From contig JADLBH010000033.1 in assembly GCA_020847855.1 (NCBI GenBank), forward strand, positions 1 through 64,000: 64,000 nucleotides of DNA, given 5' to 3'. Each line of letters starts with the position of its first letter. The stretch's first letter is position 1. The translations under genes and the position numbers were made by a program. Positions 17,254 to 31,153 of the stretch are shown here, piece by piece. The notes beneath the pieces were generated by a model, which worked only from the letters and a program-made list of their open reading frames with translations, was not told the origin of the DNA and did no database searches. This stretch comes from Fimbriimonadaceae bacterium. GTDB taxonomy: Bacteria; Armatimonadota; Fimbriimonadia; Fimbriimonadales; Fimbriimonadaceae.

Positions 17254-17619
17254 ATGGTTCGCATCGTTGGAGTGCAAAGATCGGAAGACATCCATCGCGA
17301 GTTCGTGCTCCTTCAAAACCAGGGCTCGCTCCGTGCAAACTTGCGAGGCCTGACCCTCTTGGCCGGATGTACGGTCGGTGCCGATCAGCCCGTCCTCTAC
17401 GTGTTTCCCGATGACGTGGACGTGGCCCCAGGGAACTTCGTGCTCTTGAAGACCTCGGTCTGCCCCGGCACATGGTGCCTGACGAGAGACGGCCAGCGCG
17501 TCTTCTACACCGGCATGGGAAAGAGCGAGCCGTTCTGGTCCTGTTGGAAAGGCGAGGTTCACTTGCTCGGCATACAGCACACGTTCTGCGAGCGCACCGC
17601 GGAGTCCGTTCTGGTCTAG
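17254..17619 (+). CDS. Small lamin-tail-domain-like protein
   Basis: A 121-residue protein whose N-terminal half (IVGVQRSEDIHREFVLLQNQGSLRANLRGLTLL) matches the pattern of the lamin-tail (LTD) fold: E-F-V-x-L-x-N-x-G, then a predicted strand. The rest (VLYVFPDDVDVAPGNFVLLKTS, then TRDGQRVFYTGMG) fits an Ig-like sandwich. No signal peptide is seen. Function unknown. ATG 17254 is preferred over TTG 17206 because the fold begins directly after it. The TAG stop interlocks with the pth stop in CTAG. Confidence 0.6.
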   Translation: MVRIVGVQRSEDIHREFVLLQNQGSLRANLRGLTLLAGCTVGADQPVLYVFPDDVDVAPGNFVLLKTSVCPGTWCLTRDGQRVFYTGMGKSEPFWSCWKGEVHLLGIQHTFCERTAESVLV

Positions 17620-18203
17620 CCGCTGTTCACGAACGCCATTGCTCGATCCAGACCTTCGGTCACGAACAGTTCTGCGGCTTGGCGCGTGCGGTCTAATACT
17701 GCCTCGATCACTTCCGACTCCTCCCGGCTAAAGCGGCCGAGCACGTGCTCCACGCCCGCAGCGGGCGGCTTGCCGATTCCGATCCGAATCCTTGCATACT
17801 CGTTGGTTCCCATTGCGGCGATGATGGAACGGTGGCCGTTGTGGCCCGCCGCCCCGCCTTTCGGCTTCATGGAGACGCGGCCAGGTTCCAGATCTAGTTC
17901 GTCTGCGATCACGAGCAAGGCGGATGCGTCGAGGCCCATGGCTCGCAAGAGCTGGGCGATCGGCCCTCCGCTGCGGTTCATAAAAGTCACCGGCTTTGCG
18001 AGGACGACCTCGCGGTTCCCGATCGTGCCTTGTCCATATCGGGAGCCGTGCTTCAGGGTGGCTAGCCTGATCCCATGTTGTTCCGCCAAGCGGTCCACGA
18101 CCTCGAAGCCGACATTGTGCCGTGTGCCGCGATACTCCGATCCGGGGTTGCCGAGCCCGACCACGAGGAACTCGGGTGGAGCAGTGGGCTTTCGGCGAAA
18201 CAA
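17616..18203 (-). CDS. pth: Peptidyl-tRNA hydrolase
   Basis: A 195-residue Pth that recycles peptidyl-tRNA released from stalled ribosomes. Signatures: LVVGLGNPGSEYRGTRHNVGFEVVDRLA (catalytic His in RHN), LAKPVTFMNRSGGP, VIADELDLEPGRV (catalytic Asp) and PKGGAAGHNGHRSI. Length is normal. It is the last gene of a minus-strand run beginning at dCMP deaminase; the preceding uppP stop lies 3 nt upstream of its ATG. Confidence 0.95.
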   Translation of the reverse strand: MFRRKPTAPPEFLVVGLGNPGSEYRGTRHNVGFEVVDRLAEQHGIRLATLKHGSRYGQGTIGNREVVLAKPVTFMNRSGGPIAQLLRAMGLDASALLVIADELDLEPGRVSMKPKGGAAGHNGHRSIIAAMGTNEYARIRIGIGKPPAAGVEHVLGRFSREESEVIEAVLDRTRQAAELFVTEGLDRAMAFVNSG

Positions 18204-18206
18204 GGG

Positions 18207-19046
18207 CTACTTCCCCGCCATCCCGATGAACGGATCGAGCCGACCGGTGAGCACGAAGGCGAGAAGCAACCCGCCGAGCACGATGCGATAGACGACGAAC
18301 GGCACGAGGCCGCGAGTCTGGATGAGCTTGAGCAAGAACGAGATCGCTAGCCACCCGCTGGCGAAGGCGAACAGGTTAGCGACCAACATCGGCACGAGCA
18401 ACGATCCCGTGACGAGCTCGCCCGCATGCTCCTTCAAGCTGAAGATCGCGGCCGCGACGATGGCGGGCACGGAGAGTAGGAACGAGTATCGAGCCGCCGC
18501 CGACCTCTCCATCCCCGCGAAGAGCGCACCCGTGATCGTGCTCCCGCTCCGACTCGCGCCGGGTATCAAGGCGAGCGCCTGCCAGAGGCCGACCCAGAGG
18601 CCGTCCCGAACCGTGAGCTTTTCGAGGGAACGGCCCTGCCGACCGACCCGCTCGGCCACGCCCATCAGGATGCCGAAAACGATCAGGGCGCAGGCCACGA
18701 CCACAAGAGACCGGAGCTCGTTCTCGATCCACCTTTTGGTGAGGAGCCCGATCCCCACGATGGGCAAGGTCCCCACCGCAATCCCCCATCCCAGACGCCA
18801 CTCGGGCAGTTGGCGCGCTGCTGGCTTACCGAACCCAGCCGCCCATTTCGAGGCAATCCCAATCAAATCCTTCCGGAAGAAGAGGATGACCGCGACCGTG
18901 GTCCCGATCTGGATGGCCGCCGTGAAGGCGGCCCCCGGATCTTCCCAACCCAGGACCGCCGGCAAGACCCGGATGTGCGCCGTGCTGCTGACCGGGAGAA
19001 ACTCCGTCAAGCCTTGCACGATGCCGAGGACGACCGCTTCGATCAG
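18207..19046 (-). CDS. uppP: Undecaprenyl-diphosphatase, probable CTG start
   Basis: An integral membrane phosphatase recycling undecaprenyl pyrophosphate for cell-wall and polysaccharide synthesis. GLTEFLPVSSTAH and GASRSGST are the UppP catalytic motifs, and about seven transmembrane segments are visible. The first ATG/GTG/TTG in frame is GTG 19019, which cuts off the conserved EAVVLGIV segment. Upstream codons contain no ATG, GTG or TTG. The best start is CTG 19046, which overlaps the wecB stop as CTGA and yields MIEAVVLGIVQGLTEF, 279 residues, the family's usual N terminus. Confidence 0.85.
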   Translation of the reverse strand: MIEAVVLGIVQGLTEFLPVSSTAHIRVLPAVLGWEDPGAAFTAAIQIGTTVAVILFFRKDLIGIASKWAAGFGKPAARQLPEWRLGWGIAVGTLPIVGIGLLTKRWIENELRSLVVVACALIVFGILMGVAERVGRQGRSLEKLTVRDGLWVGLWQALALIPGASRSGSTITGALFAGMERSAAARYSFLLSVPAIVAAAIFSLKEHAGELVTGSLLVPMLVANLFAFASGWLAISFLLKLIQTRGLVPFVVYRIVLGGLLLAFVLTGRLDPFIGMAGK

Positions 19047-20176
19047 ACCCAGGGTGGCACCTCCGGGCTCTCGATGCCCAGGAAGCGGAGTGCGGCATAG
19101 CGAACCCTCTGCGAAGCCATCCCGTCTCCGTAGGGGTTGGTCGCTTGCGCCATGTGGCCGAGCGCGGCCGGATCTGCCAAAAGGCTCCGAGCGGACGAAT
19201 AGACGCTCTCTTCCTTGGTTCCAACGAGCCTCGCGGTGCCAGCCTCGACTCCCTCGGGCCGCTCGGTCGTGTCTCGGAGCACCAAGACGGGAACCCCAAA
19301 CGCCGGAGCCTCTTCTTGAACCCCGCCCGAATCCGTGAGGATGAGGGCAGACCGTCGCATGAGCTGGACGAAGTCCACATAGTCCGGAGGTTCGACAAGC
19401 GTGCAGCGAGGCTTTCCCTCGAGAACGGACTGCAACGCTGTGCGCACGGCCGGGTTTCGGTGCATGGGCACGACGAGCAGGACGTCCTCGAACTCCTCCA
19501 CCAAGCGGAGGGCTGCACGAGCCACCTCGAGTTGAGGCTCGCCCCAGTTCTCGCGCCGGTGCGTCGTGAGCAAGAGCACGCGGCCCGGGTGGTCAGCATA
19601 TGGCAGACCATGCCCCTGCCTCGCAACCGCCTGCACCGCATCAATGCCCGTGTTGCCCGTGACCATCACCGAATCCGGGGCGGCACCTTCTGCCAGGAGG
19701 TTGTCGGCGGCCAATCGGGTCGGCGCAAAGTGCAACCGGGCAAAGAGACCGAGCGCCCTTCGATTGAACTCCTCGGGGAAGGGGGACCAGATGGAAGGCG
19801 TGCGAAGTCCCGCCTCGATGTGTCCGAACGGCACTTGACGGTAGAACGCGGCGAGCCCAGCACAGTAGGTCGTGGTCGTGTCCCCTTGCGCGAGCACAAG
19901 GTCGGGGGCTCGATCCGCAATCACCTGGTCCAACCCTTCCAAGGCTCGAGACGTCACGGATGCGAGCGTCTGTCCATGGTGCATCAAGCCGAGGTCCACG
20001 TCCGCCTCGAGCCCGAACGCGCCCAGGGCTTGGTCGAGCATCTCGCGGTGCTGCCCGGTCGAGACGAGCACGGTGTCAATCTGGCCTGCGAACCTTTGGA
20101 ACTCTTGCACCACGGCAGCCGATTTGATCGCGTCCGGCCTGGTCCCGACCACAAAGAGCGCAGTCGGTCTAGCCAT
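19043..20176 (-). CDS. wecB: UDP-N-acetylglucosamine 2-epimerase
   Basis: A 377-residue non-hydrolysing epimerase converting UDP-GlcNAc to UDP-ManNAc. Motifs: VVGTRPDAIK near the N terminus, STGQHREMLDQAL, LVLAQGDTTTTYCAGLAAF, HIEAGLRT, FPEEFNRR, VTGNTGIDAV, LLLTTHRRENWG, and LTDSGGVQEEAPAFGVPVLVLRDTTERPEG. Length is normal. It overlaps the upstream transferase by 8 nt and the downstream uppP by 4 nt, so the three are translationally coupled. UDP-ManNAc is typically used for surface polysaccharide. Confidence 0.95.
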   Translation of the reverse strand: MARPTALFVVGTRPDAIKSAAVVQEFQRFAGQIDTVLVSTGQHREMLDQALGAFGLEADVDLGLMHHGQTLASVTSRALEGLDQVIADRAPDLVLAQGDTTTTYCAGLAAFYRQVPFGHIEAGLRTPSIWSPFPEEFNRRALGLFARLHFAPTRLAADNLLAEGAAPDSVMVTGNTGIDAVQAVARQGHGLPYADHPGRVLLLTTHRRENWGEPQLEVARAALRLVEEFEDVLLVVPMHRNPAVRTALQSVLEGKPRCTLVEPPDYVDFVQLMRRSALILTDSGGVQEEAPAFGVPVLVLRDTTERPEGVEAGTARLVGTKEESVYSSARSLLADPAALGHMAQATNPYGDGMASQRVRYAALRFLGIESPEVPPWV

Positions 20177-21230
20177 TCGTCCGCACGATGGTGACGAGCA
20201 CGCTACACAGGACGAGCGCGAGGAGGTAGAGGATCCAGACGGCTTGGCGTTGATTCAGGCCCTGGCCCAGGAGCACATGGTGGATGTGCCGCTTGTCCGC
20301 CTGGGTCACCGGGTGTCCGCCCAACACACGGCGGACGACGACCACCACCGCATCGAGGAACGGCACACCGAAGACGAGGATGGGGATGAATAGCGCAAGC
20401 GCCGCTGCGGTCTTCAGGGCCCCGACCACGGACAAGGCCGCGAGCATGAACCCGAGCACCTGGGCCCCGCCCGTGCCCATAAAGATCTTGGCCGGGTTGT
20501 AGTTGTAGCGCAAGAAACCGATGCTCGACCCGGCGACGGCGGCAGCAAGGATCGCGACCCTGGGTTGCCCCTCATAGGCGGCAATGATGGATAGGGTCCC
20601 GCCTGCGATGCTTGCGATCCCTGCCGCGAGGCCGTCAATTCCGTCGAGCGTGTCCATGGTCTTGGTGACCACGAAGAGGTAGACGGCCGTGAGGGGCACT
20701 GCCGCCCAGCCGAAGCTCACCCAGTCCTGGCCGGGGCCGATCGGGAGCCCGATCCCACTGATCTGCACCCGGCCCGCCGAGTCGAACAGGAATTGGACAG
20801 CGACACCGGCACCGAGCAGTACCGCCATCTGCACCTTGGCGGAAAGCGGATGGACATCGTCCCTCATCCCCACGACCAGGATTCCCAAGCAAACCGCAAG
20901 GAGTCCGATCAAGTACCACGGGAAGGGTCGGAACGGGTAGGCGAACGGCAGTATTCCCAAGATCGCGACCGCAATGCCGAGGAAGATGGCGAGACCGCCC
21001 CACCGAGGGATCGGCTCCGTGTGGACGCGCCGGTCATCCCTGGTGGGATCGTCTATGGCACCTTTCGAGATCGCAAACCGACGCACAAAGGGGGTCACGA
21101 GCAACGTCACGGCCATCGCCGCCAGCAAGGTGAAGAGCGGATACCGCAAGCCGGTGAACGGGTCGTCCTTGGGAACCAGGGCCAGGAGAGAGCTAGCGAG
21201 CACCGGTCTCCAGCGGCTGGGGCTCCCCAT
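20169..21230 (-). CDS. MraY/WecA-family polyprenyl-phosphate sugar-1-phosphate transferase
   Basis: A polytopic membrane enzyme of up to 353 residues. It transfers a sugar phosphate (probably HexNAc-1-P) to undecaprenyl phosphate, the first membrane step of glycan assembly. Key blocks: AIDDPTRDDRRVHTEPIPRWGGLAIFLG, MDTLDGIDGLAAGI (catalytic DDxDG-like region), RYNYNPAKIFMGTGGAQVLGF, and the C-terminal DKRHIHHVLLGQGLNQRQ cytosolic loop. HIHH is typical of WecA-like rather than MraY enzymes. ATG 21230 overlaps the deaminase gene by 38 nt; GTG 21203 is an alternative start. Confidence 0.9.
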   Translation of the reverse strand: MGSPSRWRPVLASSLLALVPKDDPFTGLRYPLFTLLAAMAVTLLVTPFVRRFAISKGAIDDPTRDDRRVHTEPIPRWGGLAIFLGIAVAILGILPFAYPFRPFPWYLIGLLAVCLGILVVGMRDDVHPLSAKVQMAVLLGAGVAVQFLFDSAGRVQISGIGLPIGPGQDWVSFGWAAVPLTAVYLFVVTKTMDTLDGIDGLAAGIASIAGGTLSIIAAYEGQPRVAILAAAVAGSSIGFLRYNYNPAKIFMGTGGAQVLGFMLAALSVVGALKTAAALALFIPILVFGVPFLDAVVVVVRRVLGGHPVTQADKRHIHHVLLGQGLNQRQAVWILYLLALVLCSVLVTIVRTNG

Positions 21231-21672
21231 CGGCGAAGCGGAGCACGCAGGTCCCCGCTTCTTGGAACAGTTCGAGCGAGAAGGGATCGGGGTAGTCGCC
21301 TTCGAAGATTACGCGCTCGATCCCGGCATTGATCAACATCTTCGCGCAGGTGTTGCAGGGTTGGCACGTGACGTAGATCGTCGAACCCAGGCACGGAATG
21401 CCGATCATGGCCGCTTGTAGGAGGGCGTTCTGCTCGGCGTGGAGCGAGCGGATGCAGTGCCCAGCCCGCAGGCATCCCTGGGGCCATTCGTTCTCGTGGC
21501 CCCCGCTGGGGCAGTGGGAAAGGCCCCGTGGCGCACCGTTATAGCCCGTCGCGAGGATGCGGCGCTCACGTACGATCACGGCCCCGACCAACCGCCTCGG
21601 GCAGGTTGCCCTGGTCGCAACCATGGCTGCGATCTGCATAAAGTAGGCATCCCAACTGGGCCGCTCCCCCAT
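21193..21672 (-). CDS. dCMP/cytidine deaminase-family protein (ComEB type)
   Basis: A 159-residue zinc deaminase, probably deoxycytidylate deaminase supplying dUMP for dTTP synthesis. The zinc site is SLHAEQNALL (His and catalytic Glu) with CQPCNTCAKMLI (two Cys). An extra Cys-rich region (GLSHCPSGGHENEWPQGCLRAGH) is typical of dCMP deaminases and the ComEB family. CATAAT lies 11 nt upstream on this strand. It leads the run deaminase, WecA-like, wecB, uppP, pth. Confidence 0.88.
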   Translation of the reverse strand: MGERPSWDAYFMQIAAMVATRATCPRRLVGAVIVRERRILATGYNGAPRGLSHCPSGGHENEWPQGCLRAGHCIRSLHAEQNALLQAAMIGIPCLGSTIYVTCQPCNTCAKMLINAGIERVIFEGDYPDPFSLELFQEAGTCVLRFADGEPQPLETGAR

Positions 21673-21745: not shown

Positions 21746-23323
21746 CTAACCGCCCGCGAGGCGGTACATCTCCTTGACATCGGCCATGTCCACGTCCTTG
21801 TCATGGTCAATGTCGCAGATGTGCCCCCAAGCCTCCGGCATCTCCATTCCCTTGCGAACGTAGCGCTCGACGGTACGCGCCTCACCCAGGGTGACCCGGC
21901 CGTCGAAGTCAATGTCACCGGGGTAATAGATCACGACCTTGCGATCGAGCCACTCGTCCGAGAACGAGCCCGTACCAAACGAACGCAACATCAAGTGCCA
22001 CTCTCCCACGGCGAACTGAACCGTGTTGACGTTCGCAGCCCGAATGTGGCCCGGCATGTGCTCGTAGCCGTCCACGACGACCGCATCACCAGGGTCGGTG
22101 GTCCGGCTTCGGTAGATGGATGCCGTCTGCACCGCAGGTGATCCTTCGATCGGCTTCCAAGCGACCGGGATGAAATCGTGCGCCTTTTCGATGTAGGTCG
22201 TATCGCCGTGGTCGTTCCCACCGCCACCGTCGAACCTTTGGCGAGGAGGCACCGGGCCTGCCGGCTCGATCGTGAGCCAGTAGTTCGGGTTCGAAGTGTT
22301 TCCGGACCGAAGTACGCGCACATAGTACGTTCCACCTGTGAGCCCGCTCAGGGAGATCTCCTCCCAGTTGTAGCTCTCGGCGGAACTGCGCAGTTGCGTT
22401 CCGGCAGCGTTGAAAAGCTGCATGCTGAACGACCCTTGTCTGAGCCACGGCGACTCGGCGCGGACGAAGTCCCCATCCCCGCCTGGCTTGTCCAGCTTGA
22501 AGCTAAACCAGTCCTCGGCGTCCGTCACCGAGAGGTCGCGGATCGTCCGGCGCTGATAGACCGTGCCCAGATTGGGAGAGTTTTGTCCGCCCACCGGCTT
22601 CGACTTGACCTCGTTCAGAGAATTGTTTGTCTCGTAGGCGTCGGGCTGGGCGGCCGGCGGGTTGCCGACCCCGACCGGGATGCGAACTCGGTTGTTCGTT
22701 TCGTTCGACTCGAGCACTTGGCCGTTGGGATCAATGTCGCCTTCCAGCCAGTAGACGCCATCGGGAACGCCCGTGAGCTCGATGTATTGGCCCGGTAGCG
22801 AGGATCCGTAGACGTCGGCCCAACCGGGCCGGAGACCTTGGATCTGTCCGCAGCTGCCGTAATCGGGCGGGGTGTTGTGCCCAGGTAGGAACGGGTTCTC
22901 GCCAATGATCTCGAGAATGCAGAAGCTTGTCTTGGATCCTACCGCGATAATATCGCCGACCGTCCCGGCGGGAGTCATGTTCCGCAGCCGAAACGCGGTC
23001 CAATCCTCGAAGTGGATGTGCCCGTGCGTCGGGTGAAAGATGAACCAGCCTGCCTCACGGTCATACCACGAGTTGTCCGACCGGAACACTCGCTGATAGA
23101 CTCGTTGGAGGTTTCCGACGACCTCGCCGCCACGCATTTCGAGCCGGCCTTCGCCGGGGTTGTAGGACGCCGTCGAGAACCGGAGGGCCCTGGTGCCCGG
23201 CGGGAGCTCAGAGTTCGTCGTGGTCACATAGGCTGAGGCTAGGTACCGGGGAAGGAGGGTGATATCGGGAAGCAGGTCGCGAACCTGGGCTACGACCGCT
23301 GTTGCAGCGAGGGTTACAAACAT
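21746..23323 (-). CDS. Secreted lysyl oxidase-like protein with PPC and dockerin modules
   Basis: A 525-residue modular secreted protein. Signal peptide MFVTLAATAVVA; lysyl-oxidase-like domain at about 13-200 with the copper-binding motif HPTHGHIHFEDW, GSKTSFCIL and a conserved GLRPGWADVYGSSLPGQYIELTGVPDGVYWLEGDIDP ending. A bacterial pre-peptidase C-terminal (PPC) domain follows (DAEDWFSFKLDKPGG to YYVRVLRSGN), then a linker domain, then two dockerin-type EF-hand-like repeats (DIDFDGRVTLGEARTVERYV and DIDHDKDVDMADVKEMYRL). Lysyl oxidases oxidise peptidyl lysine to aldehyde for crosslinking. GTG 23344 is an alternative start. Confidence 0.85.
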   Translation of the reverse strand: MFVTLAATAVVAQVRDLLPDITLLPRYLASAYVTTTNSELPPGTRALRFSTASYNPGEGRLEMRGGEVVGNLQRVYQRVFRSDNSWYDREAGWFIFHPTHGHIHFEDWTAFRLRNMTPAGTVGDIIAVGSKTSFCILEIIGENPFLPGHNTPPDYGSCGQIQGLRPGWADVYGSSLPGQYIELTGVPDGVYWLEGDIDPNGQVLESNETNNRVRIPVGVGNPPAAQPDAYETNNSLNEVKSKPVGGQNSPNLGTVYQRRTIRDLSVTDAEDWFSFKLDKPGGDGDFVRAESPWLRQGSFSMQLFNAAGTQLRSSAESYNWEEISLSGLTGGTYYVRVLRSGNTSNPNYWLTIEPAGPVPPRQRFDGGGGNDHGDTTYIEKAHDFIPVAWKPIEGSPAVQTASIYRSRTTDPGDAVVVDGYEHMPGHIRAANVNTVQFAVGEWHLMLRSFGTGSFSDEWLDRKVVIYYPGDIDFDGRVTLGEARTVERYVRKGMEMPEAWGHICDIDHDKDVDMADVKEMYRLAGG

Positions 23324-23386
23324 GGCTGGTGCACCTTCTGGCACACTAGTTTGCTCGATTTTCCGCTGACTTGCTCCCGTTGCGCC

Positions 23387-24010
23387 CTAACCCCGGTATT
23401 TTGACCAGGTTGTGACGCTCGCTTTCGTGATCTGCACGGCCTTTTCCGGAACGACCGTACCGTTTCGGTCGGTCACGGGCGTGGCGACCACCTTGTCCAC
23501 CACGTCCATCCCTTCCACCACGATCCCGAACGCAGTGTACTGGCCATCCAGGTGGGCGGAGGTTTGGTCCATGATGAAGAACTGGCACCCTGCCGAGTTA
23601 GGGTTCGACGACCGGGCCATGCTCAGAATCCCCCTCGTGTGCTTCGTATCGTTGAACTCGGCATCCACGGCATAGCCGGGGTTGCCCGTCCCCCAGGCAG
23701 AAGCTTTGTCCAATTCCTTGGAGTTCGGATCCCCGCCCTGGATCATGAAGCCCTTGATCACGCGGTGGAACCGGGTCCCGTCGTAAAAGCCTTCCTTCGC
23801 CAGCTTCTTGAAGTTCTCCACGTGGTTCGGGGCCTTGTCGGGAAAGAACGAGATCGCGATTCTTCCTTCCGTGGTCTCCAGGACGACGATCTCGTCCTGG
23901 GGGGAGGGGAGCTTGGCTCCGGGGGCAGCGGTAGCAGGGAGTTGGTTTTCTTGCATTGCGGGACTCGTGGGCTGGGGCAGGAGGGTCGCGAGAAGGGTTG
24001 CGGCAAGCAT
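23387..24010 (-). CDS. Exported cyclophilin-type peptidyl-prolyl isomerase
   Basis: A 207-residue cyclophilin catalysing cis-trans proline isomerisation. N-terminal hydrophobic signal (MLAATLLATLLPQPTSPA), low-complexity linker, then the cyclophilin domain: FHRVIKGFMIQGGDPN (catalytic Arg in FHRV), NSAGCQFFIMDQTSAHLDGQYTAFGIVVEGMDVVDKV. It lies 8 nt downstream of a second cyclophilin gene and is probably co-transcribed with it. Confidence 0.92.
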   Translation of the reverse strand: MLAATLLATLLPQPTSPAMQENQLPATAAPGAKLPSPQDEIVVLETTEGRIAISFFPDKAPNHVENFKKLAKEGFYDGTRFHRVIKGFMIQGGDPNSKELDKASAWGTGNPGYAVDAEFNDTKHTRGILSMARSSNPNSAGCQFFIMDQTSAHLDGQYTAFGIVVEGMDVVDKVVATPVTDRNGTVVPEKAVQITKASVTTWSKYRG

Positions 24011-24018
24011 GGCCTACC

Positions 24019-24807
24019 TTACTTCCCCGGCCAGGTGAAGAGCTTGACGCTCTTCAGGATCGCTGGGTTTTGCTCAAGGGGGTTGTCGCGCTCGTCACGC
24101 TTCAGGTTCACGATCTTGTCCACAACGTCCATCCCCGAGACGACTTGACCGAAGGCGGTGTACTGCCCGTCCAAGAAGTCTGCGACGCCTTGGACGATGA
24201 AGAACTGGCTGCTCGCTGAGTTCGGGTCGTCCGACCTCGCCATGCTCAGGATGCCAGGTGTATGCTTGGTGTCGTTGAACTCGGCCTCGACGGTGACCTC
24301 GCTGCCGTTCACGATATTCCCGCCCATTCCGTCGTTTCCTCGGTCCGCGTCCCTGCTGTTCGGGTCGCCCCCCTGGATCATGAAGCCAGGCATGACGCGG
24401 TGGAACTTCGTCCCGTCGTAGAACCCAGCCTTGGCGAGGCTGAGGAAGTTCAGAACGTGCTTCGGTGCCTTTTCCGGGAAGAAGCTCAGAACGATCTTCC
24501 CGAGGTTCGTGTCCAAAACCGCGACCGGGTCGCCCGCTTTGGGAGCCACGTAGTCCTTCGCAGCGGTCTTCGGCTTCCCGTCGCCCCCCATTTCGATCTT
24601 GAGGTCGAGCGCCTGGGCACCCTGGGCGGGTGCGGTTGCCGTGGCTACATCCATGACTGCCTTGGGCTCTTCTTTCGGTGCCCCGTCGGCGGGCGCCTCC
24701 GCCGCAGGCTCTTCGGTCTCACCGACAGTGGCGGGTTCGGTGGGAGTGCAAGCCGCCGCAAAGAGGGCGAGGAGCAAGAGAACGGGCCAGGGCATCGTGC
24801 GCTTCAC
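24019..24807 (-). CDS. Lipoprotein cyclophilin-type peptidyl-prolyl isomerase
   Basis: A 262-residue lipoprotein: signal peptide with lipobox L-F-A-A-A-C20, an acidic Ala/Pro/Glu-rich linker (to about residue 90), then a cyclophilin domain with FHRVMPGFMIQGGDPN and NSASSQFFIVQGVADFLDGQYTAFGQVVSGMDVVDKI. It is a paralogue of the adjacent gene with the same architecture except membrane anchoring, so a tandem duplication is likely. CATAAT lies 15 nt upstream of the ATG. Confidence 0.93.
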   Translation of the reverse strand: MKRTMPWPVLLLLALFAAACTPTEPATVGETEEPAAEAPADGAPKEEPKAVMDVATATAPAQGAQALDLKIEMGGDGKPKTAAKDYVAPKAGDPVAVLDTNLGKIVLSFFPEKAPKHVLNFLSLAKAGFYDGTKFHRVMPGFMIQGGDPNSRDADRGNDGMGGNIVNGSEVTVEAEFNDTKHTPGILSMARSDDPNSASSQFFIVQGVADFLDGQYTAFGQVVSGMDVVDKIVNLKRDERDNPLEQNPAILKSVKLFTWPGK

Positions 24808-29896: not shown

Positions 29897-30265
29897 CTAG
29901 TCCTTGGCTAGATCGGCCACGGTCGCACCGACCTTGATCGCTTGCAGACGGTTCCCGTCAGGGTCTCGGAAGGAGGCGATCGCGCCGCGAGGCGTCTGGT
30001 GATATCCATCCTCCACGTCGGCTCCCGCTCCCTTGGCCCTTGCGACGAACTCCGCAAGGTCGTCCGTGGCGAGGCACAGCACCCAGCCACCTTGGGGCGA
30101 AGTGGCACCAGGGTCGCTCGGGCCGTGCAATCCTAGCTGGCCATTGCCGAGGTCGAACGAAGTCCAATAGGCGGACTCATAGGCGGGGTCTCGACCCAAG
30201 AGCGAGGCATAGAACCGAGACGCTCGCTCCATGTCGGCCACCTGAAACCAAACGGAGTCGAACAT
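29897..30265 (-). CDS. VOC-family (glyoxalase/bleomycin-resistance fold) protein
   Basis: A 122-residue protein of the vicinal-oxygen-chelate fold: WFQVADMERASRFYASLLG (first beta-alpha-beta unit), GWVLCLATDDLAEFVARAKGAGADVEDG, and SFRDPDGNRLQAI, the usual terminal motif. Substrate cannot be inferred. The frame is open to 30991, but the extra N terminus runs antisense to the FHA gene and has no homology, so ATG 30265 is used. It is divergent from the FHA gene with only 39 bp between the starts. Confidence 0.85.
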   Translation of the reverse strand: MFDSVWFQVADMERASRFYASLLGRDPAYESAYWTSFDLGNGQLGLHGPSDPGATSPQGGWVLCLATDDLAEFVARAKGAGADVEDGYHQTPRGAIASFRDPDGNRLQAIKVGATVADLAKD

Positions 30266-30304
30266 GGCCTGATTCTGGCCCGAAAGTGCATACTGCCGGA
30301 ACAG

Positions 30305-31153
30305 ATGGACGCGAACGCTACGCAGATGGGTGGACCGATCCCTGATCCCAACCGAACCGTCATGGGGGGTCCAGAGGTAGACCGCACGGTCACGATCAAG
30401 CCGGTCCAATGCCCGGTCTGCAAGACGATGAACGCCCCAGGACAATGGTTCTGCGTCGAGTGCGGCCTGATCTTCGCCAAGGAGCTCGATGGCGACGCCT
30501 TCGGCGCTCCGGCCGTCCAACTCCCGAGCCTCGTAGAAACGACGGGCCGCTCCCACACCCTTCGGCCCGGCCGGCAGACCGTGGGCCGGGCAGGCGACAT
30601 CTTGATCGAGGACAATCGAGTAAGCCGGATCCATGCAGGGATCACACTGGAAGCGGGAGTCGTTACGGTCGAGGACCTGGGTTCGACCAACGGTACCCAG
30701 GTCGCGGGAGAGCCTGCCCCCCCGCGCAGTCCCGTTCCCTTTCCTCCTGGCGCCACCCTTTCGCTGGGAGGCTTCGAACTCCGGCTCGTCCTTCCCGGCG
30801 AGGCCACCAAGACCCAAATGCCGGTCGGGGGCCAGACCAGGGCTATGGCCGCGGCTCCGGGCCAGATCGAGGCTGTGGCGAAGCTTGTCTGCGGCGAGAC
30901 CGTCTTCTCGATCGCGCCGGGCGAGTATACGATCGGCCGTCGGGATACGTGCGACTTCACGGTGCCAGACAGGTTTGCCAGCGGTAACCACGGCAAGATC
31001 GAGGCGGACGAGACGGGAATCTACTACACGGACACTGGGAGCACGAACGGGAGCGCGGTGAACGGCACGAGGCTCGAGCCCAACGTCCGTACGAAGCTCG
31101 AGGTCGGCGATACCTTGCGGCTTGGCAACACCGATCTCCGTCTGGAGAGCTAA
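30305..31153 (+). CDS. Zinc-ribbon protein with two FHA domains
   Basis: A 282-residue protein. The N-terminal CPVCKTMNAPGQWFCVECG (about 36-54) is a four-Cys zinc ribbon. Two forkhead-associated domains follow: one at about 85-170 (GRAGDILIEDNRVSRIHAGI then DLGSTNGT) and one at about 205-280 (GRRDTCDFTVPDRFASGNHGKI then DTGSTNGSAVNG). FHA domains bind phosphothreonine. The PP2C gene starts 5 nt downstream, so the pair likely forms a Ser/Thr-phosphorylation operon; no kinase gene is in the window. CATACT ends 10 nt before the ATG. Confidence 0.9.
   Translation: MDANATQMGGPIPDPNRTVMGGPEVDRTVTIKPVQCPVCKTMNAPGQWFCVECGLIFAKELDGDAFGAPAVQLPSLVETTGRSHTLRPGRQTVGRAGDILIEDNRVSRIHAGITLEAGVVTVEDLGSTNGTQVAGEPAPPRSPVPFPPGATLSLGGFELRLVLPGEATKTQMPVGGQTRAMAAAPGQIEAVAKLVCGETVFSIAPGEYTIGRRDTCDFTVPDRFASGNHGKIEADETGIYYTDTGSTNGSAVNGTRLEPNVRTKLEVGDTLRLGNTDLRLES

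Follow-up and report, generated by a model that had tools for sequence, protein, structure and literature searches.

In lysyl oxidases (LOX), Cu2+ helps the lysine tyrosylquinone (LTQ) cofactor to form from a lysine and a tyrosine, and oxidation of primary amines by this quinone gives aldehydes, ammonia and hydrogen peroxide. Bacterial members of the family are already known, and the retrieved portion of Grau-Bove et al. 2015 (PMC4448552) gives the first copper histidine (H289) as absent from bacterial LOX sequences. HTU-LOX of Haloterrigena turkmenica was found to be an active amine oxidase with relaxed specificity after truncation and refolding, according to the retrieved part of PMC6452851, where the function of prokaryotic LOX is termed cryptic. 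Here we describe a gene for a multidomain LOX protein (P0001) from a Fimbriimonadaceae bacterium of the phylum Armatimonadota, located in a 64,000-nucleotide stretch of DNA (positions 1 to 64,000 of the forward strand of contig JADLBH010000033.1, assembly GCA_020847855.1), hereafter the window. The host genome assembly comprises 2.53 Mb in 41 contigs and is 97% complete. P0001 consists of a hydrophobic N-terminus, a LOX domain, a PPC-like beta-sandwich, a probable second beta-sandwich and a tail with the dockerin fold. We hold with moderate confidence, judging from the sequence, that it would be an exported copper/LTQ amine oxidase with a tail that is of use to the enzyme and not to a cellulosome-like scaffold.

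The minus strand frame running from an ATG at 23323 to the stop at 21746 is a real gene encoding 525 amino acids, and a GTG 21 nt upstream of the ATG (at 23344) is an alternative start that would yield 532 amino acids. On the plus strand, stops interrupt frame 1 across 21746-23323 and the longest listed open reading frame inside this interval is 206 amino acids. The features of the gene and its product are as follows:

21746..23323, minus strand: gene for the LOX-PPC-beta-sandwich-dockerin-fold protein P0001 (open reading frame and translation; homologues in 20 Armatimonadota genomes, own included)
23273..23323, minus strand: hydrophobic N-terminus, probable signal peptide, residues ~1-17 (translation inspected by eye)
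22661..23266, minus strand: lysyl oxidase domain, residues ~20-221, Pfam stretch 93-215 (Pfam and LOXL2 alignment)
23012..23035, minus strand: copper-site motif HxxHxHxH, residues 97-104 (aligned to LOXL2 HDCHRHYH)
22931..22933, minus strand: Lys131, LTQ cofactor lysine (aligned to LOXL2 GHKASFC)
22808..22810, minus strand: Tyr172, LTQ cofactor tyrosine (aligned to LOXL2 WDMY)
22262..22636, minus strand: PPC-like beta-sandwich, residues 230-354 (fold comparison and relatives; own Pfam score below the cut-off)
21929..22201, minus strand: probable second beta-sandwich, Ig/Fn3-like, residues ~375-465 (strand pattern of a low-confidence model and motifs common to relatives)
21749..21931, minus strand: dockerin-fold module, residues 465-525, two calcium-loop/helix repeats (model, Foldseek and conserved loop ligands)

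P0001 matched the LOX family PF01186 with an E-value of 4.7e-10 and 39.9 bits, which is over the curated cut-off of 20.4 bits, and human LOXL2 was matched in the PDB with an E-value of 2.6e-7 from P0001 alone and 1.7e-14 with a 21-row profile. The residues required for catalysis were compared in an alignment of 21 sequences that includes P0001 and a Phycisphaerae relative (L016); the proteins L017, L037 and L038 stand outside it. All four histidines of the copper site (H97, H100, H102 and H104) and both cofactor residues (K131 and Y172) are kept in the 20 rows that reach these columns, and also in L018 when read whole, the contig of L018 starting within its LOX gene. C135 and C158 are likewise present in 20 of the 20 rows reaching them. 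The first copper histidine was also observed in L038 and in the LOX-only protein L037, and a serine replaces it in L017, a LOX from Zixibacteria with no tail. The hydrophobicity of the N-terminus, judged by eye, suggests that P0001 is probably exported; a short hydrophobic start followed by an LPD motif was found in most of the relatives printed as well.

The segment following the LOX domain is PPC-like mainly in its fold. Residues 230-354 of the whole-protein model match the PPC/collagen-binding domain of the ColG collagenase (1nqj_B) with a VIA Z of 11.8 and a root-mean-square deviation (rmsd) of 2.5 over 110 residues, and generic beta-sandwiches come next with Z near 9. The model has a predicted local distance difference test score (pLDDT) of 62-82, by block, across residues 261-350. 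Among the relatives, 19 of the 21 alignment rows match PPC (PF04151) at E<=0.01, P0001 not being one of these 19. A match to Por_Secre_tail, the type IX secretion system sorting domain, was found below the cut-off at residues 297-342 and was rejected as a sorting signal because it falls within the PPC region and not at the C-terminus. A preliminary description of this gene had listed a LOX domain followed by PPC and dockerin-type modules. Its LOX domain is confirmed by the Pfam score, and the copper ligands together with both LTQ residues were found in place when aligned with LOXL2. Its PPC domain finds support in the model and the relatives, although the score of P0001 itself (13.7 bits) does not reach the curated cut-off of 25.9. 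We would add to that list a probable second beta-sandwich, predicted between the PPC-like domain and the dockerin-like tail.

The calcium-loop repeats in the tail of P0001 can be taken as sufficiently certain, and the calcium-loop ligand positions of both repeats are kept in all 21 alignment rows. The assignment of the tail as dockerin-like rests on the model and on the relatives. When modelled in isolation, the tail has a pLDDT of 84.9 and its first 32 PDB hits in Foldseek are all dockerins, going by the titles of the entries and the lengths of the chains. E-values reach 0.009 at best, with none below 0.001, and calmodulin-like hits come next at a probability near 0.1. Residues 466-525 of the whole-protein model match dockerin 2ccl_B with Z 9.5 over 59 residues (rmsd 1.7). 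A profile built from five tails retrieved the double-dockerin chain 8x39 at 2.9e-12 and many other dockerins among the best 60 of 251 matches, where ordinary EF-hand proteins appear from rank 7 onwards, and the single tail sequence searched against the PDB gave five weak hits (best E-value 0.021). The Dockerin_1 model is matched at E<=0.01 by 14 of the 21 alignment rows, including P0001.

The ends of related proteins were seen to vary. Short His/Asp-rich ends such as DDHHD or EHHH follow the dockerin-like module in six relatives (L007, L011, L013, L014, L015 and L033), and, among the dockerin loci printed from cohesin-free relatives, seven of the thirteen from family f2 finish with a short FGxGC-like stretch whose last residue is a cysteine.

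No cohesin (PF00963) was found in the own genome at E<=1, in a search whose controls, Escherichia coli and Methanosarcina acetivorans, were both matched, one of the two over the cut-off. Cohesins over the cut-off were found in none of 61 genomes (own included), none of ten further genomes and none of the 20 genomes with the long LOX architecture; the cohesin and dockerin searches of LOX-bearing genomes cover those other than G098. A cohesin match in G040 (E-value 0.009, 16.9 bits) spans 29 of 139 model positions and was rejected as a cohesin. Dockerin matches at E<=0.01 occur in 37 of the 61 genomes, and the LOX-bearing genomes G014, G034, G026 and G005 hold 88, 68, 45 and 30 of them respectively with no cohesin over the cut-off. 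The dockerins printed from cohesin-free relatives (L056-L085) lie mostly at the extreme C-terminus. In the own genome, P0001 is the single dockerin match at E<=0.1. A comparison of positions revealed that every dockerin match falls in a LOX gene in nine of the 20 architecture-bearing genomes (G000, G017, G018, G040, G146, G169, G170, G171 and G173), while G016 has one match on its LOX and another elsewhere. Because cohesins were not detected and LOX tails are the sole dockerin matches in these nine genomes, the tail appears to be retained without a detectable dockerin/cohesin system, and in view of these counts we describe its fold as dockerin-like without classing the tail as a functional dockerin. 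The docking to a surface scaffold that had been suggested in the preliminary description is not supported, since the check for cohesin proteins proposed there revealed no partner, and its dockerin-type repeats stand as far as the fold and the intact calcium loops are concerned, although not by the curated Pfam score given below.

LOX was found in 21 of the 291 genomes of the phylum Armatimonadota, 19 of them from the same family, with G040 from another family of the order and G098 from elsewhere in the phylum. The long architecture, in which LOX is joined to a long second part with the two-loop tail, is present at 21 of 21 loci of 20 Armatimonadota genomes, and G146 carries two full-length LOX genes (L031 and L038) with this same architecture. 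The G098 protein L037, with 312 amino acids, consists of LOX only. Outside the phylum, the Phycisphaerae protein L016 shows the same module order at 35% identity.

P0001 would, once exported and loaded with copper, form its LTQ cofactor and convert primary amines to aldehydes, releasing ammonia and hydrogen peroxide. Its substrates probably include exposed lysine side chains on envelope or matrix proteins. The two beta-sandwich domains between LOX and the tail may be spacers or binding modules, and the C-terminal dockerin-fold module is predicted to bind calcium and could contribute to stability, to dimerisation or to the binding of a cell-surface partner other than a cohesin. As to the purpose of the chemistry, matrix cross-linking and nitrogen scavenging are both possible. 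No collagen-like protein was found over the Pfam cut-off in the genome; two weak collagen-like matches (best E-value 0.126) were rejected, the better one lying in a frame with a stop. It is a more doubtful proposal that a lineage in which neither collagen nor cohesins are detectable cross-links its own envelope or matrix proteins via allysine, using a LOX with a calcium-dependent, cohesin-independent tail.

Several observations weigh against the reading favoured here. The PF00404 (dockerin type I) score of P0001 is 17.7 bits against a curated cut-off of 22.9, and the 21.2 bits obtained in the genome search are also below it. A search with PF00963 would miss a cohesin whose sequence has diverged strongly. 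Between 15 and 88 dockerin matches occur in each of G005, G014, G026, G034, G161, G162 and G165, and because these make up seven of the 20 genomes an unrecognised family-wide docking partner is conceivable. Three further genomes show no dockerin match on LOX: G159 has no dockerin match at E<=0.01, G147 has one outside its LOX and G002 has seven, none on its LOX. The whole-protein model (mean pLDDT 49.4) is too poor for the fold of the LOX domain to be judged from it; Foldseek rows of this model with rmsd near 20 were discarded. Finally, the retrieved text of PMC6452851 reports that full-length HTU-LOX is inactive and that no amine oxidase activity was detectable in cultured H. turkmenica.

Among the alternatives, a broad-specificity exported amine oxidase that gains nitrogen from amines or detoxifies them, with no matrix cross-linking, is rather unlikely in our estimate but carries the most weight. 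HTU-LOX accepts many small amines as substrates and its authors suggest that it contributes modestly to the supply of nitrogen (PMC6452851, retrieved part), the genome contains no collagen-like substrate over the cut-off, and the patchy presence of P0001 homologues (10 of the 61 genomes searched, own included) suits an accessory trait. On the other hand, extra modules kept at every one of the 21 loci suggest placement near a macromolecule, a point weakened by the existence of the LOX-only protein in G098, and no gene for amine uptake or catabolism was recognised among the ten neighbouring frames scanned.

The scaffold model, in which the tail docks LOX onto a surface scaffold carrying cohesins and the enzyme cross-links the biofilm matrix there, draws on the dockerin-like fold and the two intact calcium loops, yet it is very improbable given the negative cohesin searches and the sole dockerin match of the genome being P0001 itself. 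We consider it slightly more improbable still that the enzyme generates peroxide or inactivates antibiotics in competition with neighbours. Hydrogen peroxide is a product of the reaction, and aminoglycosides and polymyxin are listed as HTU-LOX substrates in the retrieved part of PMC6452851, but just one of the ten neighbouring frames scanned (29897-30991) has a resistance-named family match, to the broad glyoxalase/bleomycin-resistance/dioxygenase superfamily, which is weak evidence either way. We favour the reading of an oxidase with a tail that acts for the enzyme's own benefit, and a dockerin-fold tail kept with no detected cohesin or other dockerin argues that the fold can play a part outside scaffold docking.

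The genes surrounding LOX were also annotated. A same-strand run at 17616-21672 adjoins LOX and contains, in order after it, genes for a dCMP deaminase, a wecA-like family-4 glycosyltransferase, a wecB-like UDP-GlcNAc 2-epimerase, a uppP-like protein (18207-19019, named by eye) and pth. This run from LOX to pth is kept in five of the 17 loci compared; it appears lineage-bound, and the neighbourhood was rejected as a functional clue. Upstream of LOX, two tandem genes for cyclophilin-type prolyl isomerases are located at 23387-24807, both with hydrophobic N-termini, the first identified by Pfam and the second by eye. Subtilase and M14 carboxypeptidase genes were also found upstream.

Within the PMC open-licence literature, neither the phrase "bacterial lysyl oxidase" nor lysyl oxidase together with "armatimonad" gave a match, the two co-mentions of dockerin and lysyl oxidase were judged unrelated from their listing, and nothing usable on cohesin-free dockerins was found in the retrieved texts, including the review PMC12484212. 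LOX-based bacterial matrix chemistry was not found there, nor was a description of the LOX-PPC-dockerin-like combination. The conserved multidomain LOX of Fimbriimonadaceae offers a testable setting for prokaryotic LOX function.

When compared with the known systems, the tail of P0001 shares two calcium-loop/helix repeats and, by the model, the same fold with cellulosome type I dockerins (4fl4, 2ccl and 8x39), whereas no cohesin partner or other dockerin match was found in its genome. The PPC-like domain resembles that of clostridial collagenase (1nqj) in its beta-sandwich fold, but it sits on an oxidase and not on a protease, and collagen binding is not implied by the likeness. HTU-LOX and P0001 are both prokaryotic LOX with a hydrophobic N-terminal region; HTU-LOX, in contrast, is archaeal, and the retrieved part of PMC6452851 mentions no dockerin-like tail. 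P0001 has in common with the PF01186 family, which includes animal LOX/LOXL and prokaryotic LOX (PMC4448552, retrieved part), the catalytic domain, the copper histidines and the LTQ lysine and tyrosine. It differs from the bacterial LOX sequences of the same source in that P0001 and its relatives keep the first histidine (20 of 20 rows), and from the LOX family in the further modules that follow its LOX domain.
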